NCBI GenBank assembly: GCA_903828955.1
Contig: CAIKOA010000008.1
Coordinates: 1-36,812, forward strand
DNA length: 36,812 bases
Direction of reading: 5' to 3'
From: an uncultured Microcaldota archaeon
GTDB taxonomy: Archaea; Micrarchaeota; Micrarchaeia; Anstonellales; Bilamarchaeaceae
A model generated the notes under the pieces. That model was not told the DNA's origin and did no database searches. It worked only from the letters and a program-made list of their open reading frames with translations. Numbering within the stretch: position 1 is the stretch's first letter; each line of letters opens with the position of its first letter. Made by a program: the position numbers and the translations under genes. Below are positions 28,954 to 34,383 of the stretch, one piece after another.

Positions 28954-29199
28954 ATGAGCACCCATAAATGCGCAGCTTGCAGATGTTCAATGAAAAAATA
29001 TTCCAAAGTGAACAAGCTATTCAAAGGCAAATACATACTTTCCGATGTGACCATGTACGTATGTGAAAAATGCGGGGAAGAGTACATAAGTGATGAGGAG
29101 TACGAGCGGATACGCAAAAAGATTGAAGAAATTGAATCGAAGAGCAGGATACCCGCAGTCCACGAAGTAATCGCAAAGGCGCGTTTCATAGTCCTCTGA
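28954..29199 (+). CDS. YgiT-like zinc-ribbon protein
   Basis: An 81-residue protein with two metal-binding knuckles: CAACRC near the N-terminus and CEKCGEEY in the middle. A helical tail ends IPAVHEVIAKARFIVL. This is the layout of the YgiT-type zinc-finger domain, which in bacteria forms the N-terminal half of MqsA antitoxins and also stands alone. There is no adjacent toxin-like gene of MqsR type, so a toxin-antitoxin role is not supported. AAGGTGA lies 6 nt before the ATG. Confidence 0.75.
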   Translation: MSTHKCAACRCSMKKYSKVNKLFKGKYILSDVTMYVCEKCGEEYISDEEYERIRKKIEEIESKSRIPAVHEVIAKARFIVL

Positions 29200-29269: not shown

Positions 29270-30124
29270 ATGAGAACGTTAGCGCTTTTCGGAATTATCA
29301 TAGCAATGCTGTTCCTCGCCGGATGCGGGGGCCCAAGCGGATGCTCGACAAATGCGGACTGCGGAAACTGGCAATCCTGCAACAACGGCACAAAGGTGTG
29401 CGATGCAAAGGCGGGCTTCTGCAATGTGGATACGGAATGCAAGGGGAAAGAGAATTCCTGCCTCCAGGACACGCACAAATGCAAAATAGAGAATTATTGC
29501 GACTCTGAAGGCGATTGCGACACTTCCTGGCAAACATGTTCGCTTGCAGACAAAACCTGCAAGCCAAAGGCAGGCTTCTGCGTTTCTGCAAGCGAATGCA
29601 ACCCAACAATTGAGCAGTGCAACAACGCAACGCACACCTGCGTATTGAAAAATGGGGTTTGCACGAGCGATTATGATTGCGAGGCATGGCAGGCATGCAA
29701 TTTGGTAAATAAGAACTGCGTCCCCACTGAAGGAAGGTGCGCAGTGGATACAGATTGCCTGGAATGGGAGACCTGCAACTCAACCGCGCACATGTGCAAT
29801 CCAAACGCCGGGTTCTGCATAAACGACGGGGACTGCCAAAAATGGCAATCCTGCGAGCTGCTCACCAACAAGTGCAAGGTTGCCACGGGCTTCTGCGACC
29901 ATGATGCAGGGTGCAACACCTGGGAATACTGCGACCTTGCGAAGCACCTTTGCACTCCGAGGCGCGGATACTGCTCCTCAAGTGCGAACTGCAACACTTG
30001 GGAACTGTGCCAGTTCGACAGCCACACCTGCAGGGCGAAAGCGGGAATGTGCAACACTAACATGGATTGCGACACAGGGTATTCCTGCAACTTAAAGAGC
30101 CATAAATGCGAAAGGGTAGGATAA
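29270..30124 (+). CDS. Secreted lipoprotein of ten tandem four-Cys repeats
   Basis: A 284-residue protein. A short hydrophobic signal ends in the lipobox LAGC, with Cys19 as the likely lipidated residue. The rest is ten back-to-back units of about 25-27 residues with the consensus C-x5-C-x5-C-x6-C-x5-6. Typical units are FCINDGDCQKWQSC plus ELLTNKC, and RCAVDTDCLEWETC plus NSTAHMC. Each unit therefore has four Cys, about 40 in total plus the lipobox Cys, presumably two disulfides per unit. Asp/Glu often precedes the second Cys and Trp is common before the third. No function is known; a surface adhesin or binding stalk is likely. It has its own AAGGTG ribosome-binding site and a TATA-like TTTTAATT about 36 nt upstream. 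Confidence 0.82.
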   Translation: MRTLALFGIIIAMLFLAGCGGPSGCSTNADCGNWQSCNNGTKVCDAKAGFCNVDTECKGKENSCLQDTHKCKIENYCDSEGDCDTSWQTCSLADKTCKPKAGFCVSASECNPTIEQCNNATHTCVLKNGVCTSDYDCEAWQACNLVNKNCVPTEGRCAVDTDCLEWETCNSTAHMCNPNAGFCINDGDCQKWQSCELLTNKCKVATGFCDHDAGCNTWEYCDLAKHLCTPRRGYCSSSANCNTWELCQFDSHTCRAKAGMCNTNMDCDTGYSCNLKSHKCERVG

Positions 30125-30127
30125 AGG

Positions 30128-30394
30128 CTAATCCCTTTCCCTCCACATTTTTCTTTTGGTATTCAATAAATCCTTAGAAATAGACGCGAGCTGGCTGCTC
30201 ACCCTCAAAGCCTCATCAGGGCTTAATTTTATCGCCACCTGCCCAATAGTATTGATTACCCTCAAAGTAAGGACTCCATCGCGAGGAAACCCGTTTGAAT
30301 TCGTAGGGGCTTCGCTCTCCATCCGCAATATCGTGCGGTGCTGTTCCCCCTTATCGTCCTTCCACCAATGGGTTACCTCATCTTCAACTGGCAT
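30128..30394 (-). CDS. Small conserved-looking protein, unknown function
   Basis: An 88-residue protein without recognised family: MPVEDEVTHWWKDDKGEQHRT, then VLTLRVINTIGQVAIKLSPDEALRVSSQL, then a basic helical tail. It has no signal peptide or transmembrane segment. The ATG at 30394 is preferred because GGTGG sits 5 nt upstream and a TATAA-type element (about 30434-30443) lies about 45 nt before it, giving a short leader. The frame extends to a TTG at 30433 (101 residues), but that start would lie upstream of the expected transcription start. It is antisense-convergent with the Cys-repeat lipoprotein, 3 nt apart. Confidence 0.62.
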   Translation of the reverse strand: MPVEDEVTHWWKDDKGEQHRTILRMESEAPTNSNGFPRDGVLTLRVINTIGQVAIKLSPDEALRVSSQLASISKDLLNTKRKMWRERD

Positions 30395-30433
30395 GGATGC
30401 CACCACGGTCGCAATTCTAAGATAGTATTTCAA

Positions 30434-30554: not shown

Positions 30555-32330
30555 GTGGAGGGCACGAACCTTTTCGTATTATTCATAGTTGGATTTGTGC
30601 TGGGCTGCGTCCTCGTAATGCTTTTATGGATGGCAAGCCCGGCATGCCTCTCAATCCCCGGAATCAGCGGGGCTGCGGGAGTAGCGGCAGGAACTTCTGC
30701 CAACCTTACCCCTGCCTCGGGCACGTATACCAACATGGTGATACGCGACCAGGGCGGAAGGACGATCGCGACCACCGGGGATAAGGGAACGCTGAGCACA
30801 TTCACCGATGAAAACGGAAAGAAGAGGAATGTGATGTGCTACATGTCCTACTACTGCGTGGACCAGACCCCCTGTGAAAACAACCAATGCATACAGAAAG
30901 GGCAGAGATGCAGCCTCTCAACGATGCAGCAGGCTTCAGCAGCCACGGCCAACTACAATCCGGCAACGGGCGCATACACAGGAACAAGCGCCACGGCCGC
31001 AAGCCAGTGCTGCTCTCCCTATGAATGCATAAACGGATACTGCGGCGAGACCCAGACCTGTGTTAAAAGCGGGGAAAAATGCTCGACCGACAACGACTGC
31101 TGCCAGGGCCAGTGCACAAACGGAGTGTGCGGCCAGAACACCTGCCAGCAGGAAAACGACAGGTGCGGCAACGTATATCCGCAGCAAACAACAACGACGA
31201 TGATGGTAAACCAGCAGCCAACTTATTACGGAGAATGCTGCTCTCCCTATGAATGCGTAAACAACACGTGCACCCCACAGCAGGCATGCGTTCAAACTGG
31301 GAAAATCTGCGGAAGGGTCCAGGACTCCTCCATAGTCACAGCGGTTGTCTACAAGGACTATGGGGAATGCTGCTCTCCTGACGAATGCGTGAACAATGTC
31401 TGCGGCGGCACACAGCAATGCGTCCAGACAGGGCAGACCTGCGGAACAACTTACCCAGCAGGGGCAACAGCCAATTACCCGATACAACACGGGGACTGCT
31501 GCGCGCCTGACCAATGCGTGAACAACGTGTGTACACCACAGGAAACCTGCCAGAAGACAAATGCGATCTGCGGCTATGGGCCGCCGGTTTACACAACCGT
31601 TGTGGCAAACAGGACATGGCATGGAGACTGCTGCAGCGGGGATACCTGCGTGGACGGGTACTGCCAGCCGCAGTGCGGAGAGCTGAATGGAAAATGCAGC
31701 TCGACTCTTGCCTGCTGCGAGGGATACTGTGTTGCTAGCGTGTGCCAATCCTGCGAACCGGTAGGCTACACCTGCAAGGCGGATTCAGAATGCTGCCAGG
31801 GGTACACCTGCCAGAACGGAAAGTGCAGTTCCTGCATGAAGCAGAACTCGGAATGCAGCAAGGACGCGGACTGCTGCAACGGCCTTGTTTGCTTTGACGG
31901 CACATGCAAGCTTCAAGGGGCATGCGGCGAAGCAGGCCAGACCTGCGGCCTCGGAGTGAAGTGCTGTGAAGGAATGGAATGCTCTGATAATGATGTGTGC
32001 GTAGAATGCGCGCCGGTGGGGGATAGCTGCGGAGGGCAGTACACCGGAGCAGGAGGGTCAAGCTGCTGCTCAACCGGATACTGCTATTCCGGAACATGCA
32101 AGCAGAAAACCAAGTACCTCTGCGAGGACACCGAGACCGGGCCGGACTACTATTCTCCAGGCAGCGCAACCGGAGTATTCAAGGGCGTATACGGGACCTA
32201 CACGGACTATTGCCTTACGAGCGCTTCAGGAGTGGTGGATTACTACTGCGAAGTGAACGGTGAAAACTCCGAGATACAAACAGCGCAGGTGACGTGCCCG
32301 AACGGATGCTCTGGCGGGGCATGCAAGTAA
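30555..32330 (+). CDS. Membrane-anchored protein with tandem knottin-like Cys modules
   Basis: A 591-residue protein. Residues about 5-27 form one transmembrane segment or uncleaved signal anchor, followed by a Thr/Ala/Gly-rich linker. From about residue 90 on there are roughly ten Cys-rich modules containing a CC pair, such as C-x6-C-x5-CC-x4-C-x4-C. Examples are CVKSGEKCSTDNDCC plus QGQCTNGVC, and CEPVGYTCKADSECC plus QGYTC. Spacing and the CC doublet are those of inhibitor-cystine-knot (knottin) folds. Some modules carry 15-20-residue Thr/Tyr-rich insertions between the second Cys and the CC. The C-terminal 100 residues form a different Cys-containing domain ending CPNGCSGGAC. The start is GTG, with GGTG upstream. 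Function unknown; probably surface-exposed. Confidence 0.82.
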   Translation: MEGTNLFVLFIVGFVLGCVLVMLLWMASPACLSIPGISGAAGVAAGTSANLTPASGTYTNMVIRDQGGRTIATTGDKGTLSTFTDENGKKRNVMCYMSYYCVDQTPCENNQCIQKGQRCSLSTMQQASAATANYNPATGAYTGTSATAASQCCSPYECINGYCGETQTCVKSGEKCSTDNDCCQGQCTNGVCGQNTCQQENDRCGNVYPQQTTTTMMVNQQPTYYGECCSPYECVNNTCTPQQACVQTGKICGRVQDSSIVTAVVYKDYGECCSPDECVNNVCGGTQQCVQTGQTCGTTYPAGATANYPIQHGDCCAPDQCVNNVCTPQETCQKTNAICGYGPPVYTTVVANRTWHGDCCSGDTCVDGYCQPQCGELNGKCSSTLACCEGYCVASVCQSCEPVGYTCKADSECCQGYTCQNGKCSSCMKQNSECSKDADCCNGLVCFDGTCKLQGACGEAGQTCGLGVKCCEGMECSDNDVCVECAPVGDSCGGQYTGAGGSSCCSTGYCYSGTCKQKTKYLCEDTETGPDYYSPGSATGVFKGVYGTYTDYCLTSASGVVDYYCEVNGENSEIQTAQVTCPNGCSGGACK

Positions 32331-33597: not shown

Positions 33598-34383
33598 ATG
33601 GACCTATTAGGCATAATTCTCCTTTCCATTCTCCAGGGAATAACCGAATGGCTTCCGGTCTCCAGCTCTGCCCACCTTGCGCTTGCCCAGTATTATTTCA
33701 TAGGGCAAATCCCAATCCTCTATGATCTGGGCCTGCACGTAGGGACTACGCTCGCAGTCTTGGTCTATTTTAGGGAAAAAATACTCAAAATAATCTTAAG
33801 CGTATTGAAATTCCAGACTAAAAGCGAGGAATTCAACCTCGCAGCAATGATAGTTCTCGCATCCATCCCTACCGCAATAATAGGATTTGCACTCAAGGGA
33901 TTTTTTGAATCAATGTATTCAAACCCGTTCTCAATCGGGCTTGCATTGGTAATCACGGCTGCAATCCTCCTCTCAACCTTGTTCGCAAAGCCAAAGGCAG
34001 CAAAACCCAACCCAAAGAATGCAATCGCAATCGGGATTATGCAGGGAATCGCAGTCGCACCGGGAATTTCAAGGAGCGGCTCCACAATCTCAGCCGGCCT
34101 CCACTGCGGGATGGATTGGAAAGAGGCAGCCTCCTTCGCCTTCCTGCTCGCAATCCCGGCGGTTATGGGCGCAACCCTCTTCGAACTGAAGGATACCCCC
34201 ATAACTTCTATAGATTCAACTCTTCTCTTAGTCGGAATCGCAGTCTCATTCCTCGCAGGCTATGCAACAATCCATCTCCTCATGAATAAAATAAACAAGA
34301 ATATTTTCCCCCTATTTGCAGCATACTGCCTTGCTTTAGGGGTATTCGTAATGGGAATAAATTGCGGAGTCTGCGGAAGCTAG
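33598..34383 (+). CDS. uppP: Undecaprenyl/polyprenyl-diphosphate phosphatase, UppP (BacA) family
   Basis: Integral membrane phosphatase that recycles the polyprenyl-diphosphate lipid carrier used in glycan assembly. The 261-residue protein has the motif QGITEWLPVSSSAHLAL (residues 14-30) and the second signature PGISRSGSTISAGL (about 158-171), with about eight hydrophobic segments, all typical of BacA/UppP. In archaea the carrier is probably a dolichol- or undecaprenol-type phosphate. This links the region to the surface-glycan locus on the left. Its stop overlaps the convergent adenosyltransferase gene by 4 nt. Confidence 0.9.
   Translation: MDLLGIILLSILQGITEWLPVSSSAHLALAQYYFIGQIPILYDLGLHVGTTLAVLVYFREKILKIILSVLKFQTKSEEFNLAAMIVLASIPTAIIGFALKGFFESMYSNPFSIGLALVITAAILLSTLFAKPKAAKPNPKNAIAIGIMQGIAVAPGISRSGSTISAGLHCGMDWKEAASFAFLLAIPAVMGATLFELKDTPITSIDSTLLLVGIAVSFLAGYATIHLLMNKINKNIFPLFAAYCLALGVFVMGINCGVCGS

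Follow-up and report, generated by a model that had tools for sequence, protein, structure and literature searches.

A probable membrane-anchored array of tandem knottins encoded by an uncultured Microcaldota archaeon

The window analysed here is a 36,812-nucleotide stretch of DNA from an uncultured Microcaldota archaeon (GenBank assembly GCA_903828955.1, contig CAIKOA010000008.1), and our subject is one cysteine-rich gene on its forward strand, at 30555..32330, whose product we call KNOT. The open reading frame (ORF) begins with GTG and specifies 591 amino acids (aa), including 77 Cys and 11 CC pairs; the ORF itself, its homologues and purifying selection support it as a gene, and its product is very probably a membrane-anchored knottin array. 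An earlier note, made from the sequence alone, had proposed an N-terminal anchor followed by about ten modules with the C-x6-C-x5-CC-x4-C-x4-C layout of inhibitor cystine knots (ICKs). The anchor is confirmed by hydropathy and by AlphaFold2 (AF2) as a hydrophobic helix at aa 4-26 (30564..30632), and we infer that this helix is an uncleaved signal anchor. It is followed by a poorly conserved stretch and then by a conserved N-domain (aa 61-107, 30735..30875), seen in alignment A1, with the motif TYTDxxGxxR..CYxxxYCVe.CP. Next come 11 modules joined by linkers of 2-5 residues, and the chain ends with a six-Cys domain (aa 523-590, 32121..32324) that is recognised in the alignments, receives no confident AF2 prediction and is related to repeats found in tandem elsewhere among surface-type proteins of the phylum. 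All of these features lie on the forward strand; the N-domain, the six-Cys domain and an adjoining lipoprotein gene described below are additions to the earlier picture.

All 11 modules fit the knottin spacing pattern, for which we used C-x(4-7)-C-x(3-40)-CC-x(3-4)-C-x(4-6)-C. Five are short: modules 2 (aa 169-192, 31059..31130), 7 (aa 374-397, 31674..31745), 8 (aa 400-424, 31752..31826), 9 (aa 427-451, 31833..31907) and 10 (aa 457-482, 31923..32000). The remaining six carry an insert, in each case at one point between Cys2 and the CC pair, as the earlier note had described for several modules. Specifically, these long modules and their C2-C3 loop lengths are module 1 (32 residues; aa 112-163, 30888..31043), module 3 (23; aa 197-239, 31143..31271), module 4 (19; aa 245-283, 31287..31403), module 5 (18; aa 289-326, 31419..31532), module 6 (19; aa 332-370, 31548..31664) and module 11 (11; aa 485-515, 32007..32099), and several of the inserted loops are rich in Thr and Tyr. 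When the residues of KNOT after position 90 were shuffled 2000 times, the mean number of modules recovered was 0.05 and the maximum 2; the pattern is far above chance.

Spacing statistics from 190 modules of 18 related proteins describe two kinds of module. The short-module consensus spacing is 6-5-4-4, which is the layout proposed at the outset. Across the set, C1-C2 is mostly 5-6 residues, CC to C5 mostly 4, C5-C6 mostly 4-5 and the linkers mostly 2-6; the C2-C3 loop is bimodal, at about 5 residues in short modules versus 17-20 in long ones. Because this loop length is bimodal and the motif CGYGPT...YYGxCC recurs frequently in the long loops, the long modules are a definite module type. In short modules, the C1-C2 loop shows a preference for Gly.

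To characterise the fold, a module profile built from 55 short modules was searched against the PDB, where it matched 98 sequences with a best E-value of 4.8e-6, and the best 60 of these 98 were knottin peptides and Dickkopf-4. A control profile in which the non-Cys residues had been shuffled within each module gave 16 matches, still to knottins, with a best E-value of 0.063. Because the control is weaker on both counts, the PDB match exceeds what Cys spacing provides; the spacing by itself points to the knottin fold and the other residues strengthen the match. The whole KNOT protein gave one weak PDB match. An AF2 model of modules 8 and 9 as a pair, made with an alignment of 46 rows, reached a mean predicted local distance difference test (pLDDT) score of 90.2, and Foldseek matched this two-module model in the PDB mainly to knottins (squash inhibitors, Pn3a and conotoxin GXIA among them) and to Dickkopf-type domains (Dkk4, draxin and Dkk1). 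The closest superpositions were with GXIA (rmsd 0.6 Å over 25 columns) and Pn3a (0.8 Å over 30 columns); E-values were weak (best 0.016) because the modules are tiny. At full length, AF2 gave low overall confidence (pLDDT 56, predicted template modelling score, pTM, 0.23). This model has the helix at aa 4-26 and a hairpin in 11/11 modules; the N-region, the C-domain and every one of the six inserted loops score under 50 in pLDDT.

On KNOT itself, Pfam Dickkopf_N (PF04706) aligns to aa 423-451 weakly (E 0.0016), its 19.1 bits not reaching the gathering score of 25. Among the 12 proteins of alignment A3, Dickkopf_N appears at E 0.01 or better in five (best 4.8e-10) and Toxin_12 in two (best 4.6e-9). 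An NCBIfam search with KNOT returned no match. We found no alignment to a different Cys-rich family, and Dickkopf_N, the named family closest to KNOT, has the same knotted unit within it. Thus the likeness to ICKs that was first suggested is supported, and by sequence and predicted fold we assign the KNOT modules to the knottins.

KNOT homologues align along the full length of the protein (alignments A1 and A3). Relative to KNOT, 94-98% of aligned Cys positions are retained, as against 20-39% of the positions with other residues, and the number of modules differs among relatives. Pairwise ratios of nonsynonymous to synonymous substitution rates (dN/dS) among relatives more than 50% identical are 0.14-0.37, some of the pairs having a high dS; on these alignments the gene is judged to be under purifying selection. 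Homologues, which the earlier note had suggested seeking in other archaea, were found across the phylum Micrarchaeota: at 14 loci in GTDB, and in 67 of 295 phylum genomes searched with A1, many of these matches being to the C-terminal domain only. In the host genome, KNOT is the only clear knottin array by the module profile, with single or weak modules in a few other Cys-rich proteins. No occurrence outside Micrarchaeota was demonstrated in the GTDB scan, which used one peptide pattern that distant cases would escape. One locus considered as such an occurrence, L031, was set aside when a search of its phylum gave the same contigs and positions as before. A virus origin was also rejected, as the patterns searched for in IMG/VR revealed no relative and there was no phage match.

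Upstream on the same strand, 29270..30124 encodes LIPO, a Cys-repeat lipoprotein of 284 aa with the lipobox LAGC and the repeat C-x5-C-x5-C-x6-C-x6. LIPO is syntenic with KNOT in two genera, is found in 38 of the 43 genomes of the family (mostly at 37-51% identity) and matches Pfam DUF5885 slightly under the cut-off (E 5.5e-8). By eye, its repeat resembles the first half of the Dickkopf N-domain. A longer array of the same repeat occurs in a 703-aa ORF for a surface-type protein on the reverse strand elsewhere in the host genome (L087, on C20), which has a hydrophobic helix close to its C-terminus.

The order HAD hydrolase, LIPO, small reverse-strand gene, KNOT and Trm56 is retained in L018, L020, L021 and L022, and in L019 and L023 over the portion that the contigs cover. 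In L024 and L026 LIPO does not adjoin the knottin gene, and in genome G020 other, unrelated genes occupy KNOT's place. Because of this, and because KNOT is present in 12 of the 43 family genomes, we read it as an accessory gene, in one subgroup lying beside the near-universal LIPO gene. An obligate KNOT and LIPO pair, also considered, is ruled out by the unequal counts (38/43 versus 12/43) and by the two loci where they are not adjacent. Glycosyltransferases are encoded near KNOT, and by its motif we read 33598-34383 as a putative undecaprenyl-diphosphatase.

Elsewhere in Micrarchaeota, knottin arrays follow other kinds of N-terminus. Pilin-like N-termini precede arrays in L083, L084, L091 and L101 and in two proteins of L102, the label 'pilin-like' being used because a Q-x-S-x-E type motif precedes the hydrophobic helix; these proteins have in common a 'YW...P(I/L)AI' domain. 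The L083 protein (L083:993-3563, reverse strand; 857 aa, 148 Cys) exceeds the Pfam cut-offs for Dickkopf_N (E 7.5e-21 in a phylum relative) and Toxin_12. With Class_IIIsignal, one L102 ORF scored E 7.6e-5, slightly under the cut-off, L083 only 0.084, and the others had no match; a search for a class III signal peptide at the KNOT N-terminus likewise gave none, and KNOT does not qualify as a type IV pilin on this test. Lipoprotein signals precede arrays in L028 and L029, and in L092 an array lies within a protein of 3246 aa whose N-terminus is signal-like. Judged by these N-termini, the pilin-like, lipoprotein and giant-protein carriers are putatively exported types. In addition, the host genome encodes a lipoprotein (L081:1-1614, forward strand, on C28) that starts with a Kazal domain recognised by Pfam (E 2e-6, above cut-off) followed by repeats resembling the KNOT C-terminal domain. 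A broader proposal is that the knottin fold diversified within Micrarchaeota into a surface module of general use, carried by membrane helices, by lipoproteins and by pilin-like filament proteins, with which partner or host cells are recognised; this is speculative, and we hold it to be somewhat unlikely.

The best explanation overall, to which we assign a probability of about 0.5, is that KNOT is a tethered string of knottin beads outside the cell that serves adhesion or recognition. The N-terminal helix would hold the protein in the cytoplasmic membrane with the remainder outside, the 11 knots would form a compact and probably protease-resistant bead string, the six Cys2-Cys3 inserts would project as flexible loops, and the C-terminal six-Cys domain would terminate the string. 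In such an arrangement the knots would be the scaffold and the loops a binding or glycosylated face, and KNOT would most likely make multivalent contacts, whether with partner cells, with surfaces or with material of the envelope. A surface role is supported by the similar arrays that are mounted on pilin-like and lipoprotein anchors. Taken separately, the function in adhesion or recognition is a tentative assignment to which we give slightly less than even odds; the sequence does not decide among adhesion, protease shielding and envelope stiffening, and we rank adhesion or recognition first.

Several points weigh against this explanation. The outward topology is suggested by the anchor and the chemistry, and the charge bias is weak: several relatives have positive charges N-terminal to the helix, and KNOT itself has none there. 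The disulfide pairing is presumed to be 1-4/2-5/3-6, with the third bond threading the ring, and the pTM of the full-length model is low. The gene is patchy, as many relatives manage without it. Finally, an array outside the cell requires oxidative folding, for which the earlier note had suggested looking for DsbA- or VKOR-type oxidases. A family search of the host genome gave no match to VKOR, and across the family genomes VKOR matches are weak and below the cut-off in 6 of 43. The host genome does encode an exported 369-aa protein with a signal-like N-terminus, in which a thioredoxin domain with a CPHC motif is fused to a multi-pass membrane domain (L017:547-1656, reverse strand), and a DsbA-like protein of 357 aa, membrane-anchored, in which CPYG replaces CxxC (L016:706-1779, forward strand). 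We read the multi-pass domain of the former as CcdA/DsbD-like; in Pfam the protein matches SfLAP and Thioredoxin_3 only, both below the cut-off. These two thioredoxin-fold proteins could handle extracellular thiols. Because they are present and a VKOR match is absent, a folding route is plausible and the oxidase is not established.

The strongest competitor is a mainly structural role, in which KNOT, together with LIPO, would be a disulfide-stiffened spacer or coat that strengthens the envelope and has no specific ligand. Purifying selection with conserved Cys and drifting surfaces, the variable number of modules and the proximity to a Cys-repeat lipoprotein of 38/43 genomes are all consistent with this. 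However, the patchy presence of KNOT and its replacement by unrelated genes in G020 are unlike an essential coat protein, and the two module types with their recurrent loop motif suggest more than spacing; we consider a purely structural role unlikely, roughly half as credible as the tethered adhesion or recognition array.

Squash knottins and Kazal domains are protease inhibitors, and KNOT might similarly be a membrane-tethered inhibitor array protecting the cell surface against secreted proteases. EETI-II and other squash trypsin inhibitors are among the Foldseek matches, and the same genome carries the L081 Kazal lipoprotein with its KNOT-like repeats. Against this, the best profile matches are venom-type peptides and not squash inhibitors, and the C1-C2 loop of the short modules offers no conserved residue fit for a P1 site beyond its Gly preference. 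This makes protease inhibition improbable.

Very improbable, in turn, is an anti-competitor or anti-host toxin array, an analogy with venom knottins that draws on the solved structures closest to KNOT, mostly venom peptides, and on the Toxin_12 matches in A3. KNOT is membrane-anchored and release sites between its modules are not evident, its dN/dS values do not indicate an arms race, and the genes annotated around it serve housekeeping and sugar transfer, none of them being an evident immunity gene; the likeness to venom peptides reflects the fold. Metal ions or clusters bound by the Cys in place of disulfides, which the very high Cys content and the absent VKOR-type match might favour, can be largely dismissed given the knottin spacing in 11/11 modules, the agreeing fold prediction and a Pfam search of KNOT that matched no metal-binding family.

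Knottins are familiar mainly from eukaryotes, as toxins of spiders and snails and as protease inhibitors of plants, and are valued as stable scaffolds. KNOT resembles ICK peptides such as spider and cone-snail toxins and squash trypsin inhibitors in its six-Cys spacing, predicted fold and shared non-Cys positions. Solved ICK peptides are mostly secreted, eukaryotic and of single or double domains; unlike them, KNOT is a single membrane-anchored chain from an archaeon with 11 modules, six of which have a long C2-C3 loop. The Dickkopf N-terminal domain (Dkk1, Dkk4, draxin), the top Foldseek match, holds the same C-x6-C-x5-CC-x4-C-x4-C unit, although Dickkopf proteins belong to the Wnt pathway of animals and have one such domain each, and KNOT falls below the Pfam cut-off. 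The two-module model also matched pithovirus membrane proteins and uncharacterised iridovirus proteins in BFVD (best E 2.5e-4), several of them named 'Transmembrane protein' and many from pithovirus; these are giant viruses of eukaryotes, and with common descent not evidenced we treat them as a parallel case. Compared with archaeal type IV pilins and class III signal proteins, whose N-termini are resembled by those of other knottin arrays in the phylum, KNOT has a plain membrane helix.

In joining tandem disulfide-rich domains in one chain, KNOT also resembles the secreted cysteine-rich repeat proteins (SCREPs), which are extracellular; its own export is suggested by the anchor only. The portion of the SCREP account drawn on here describes them for bacteria and eukaryotes, names no archaeal members and gives knottin folds as scarce (PMC6262176), and a survey of solved structures lists no such peptides in archaeal PDB chains (PMC4491269). 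Our search of the open-access literature on archaea, DPANN and Micrarchaeota, with subscription papers outside its scope, did not turn up any previous account of tandem knottins in archaea. The knottin fold itself is well known, as are tandem disulfide-rich proteins of bacteria and eukaryotes. A conserved knottin family on several anchors in tiny archaea is a concrete candidate for cell-cell contact, a natural source of multi-knottin scaffolds and, in KNOT, a case in which to test how disulfides form outside the cell when no VKOR has been identified.

Two small genes flank LIPO. An 81-aa protein encoded at 28954-29199 (forward strand) matches the MqsA antitoxin weakly (E 0.0008, below the cut-off), with no obvious toxin partner adjacent. 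A 101-aa protein encoded at 30128-30433 (reverse strand), with no Pfam match, adjoins LIPO in seven loci and, at 63-81% identity among relatives, is far better conserved than its neighbours.
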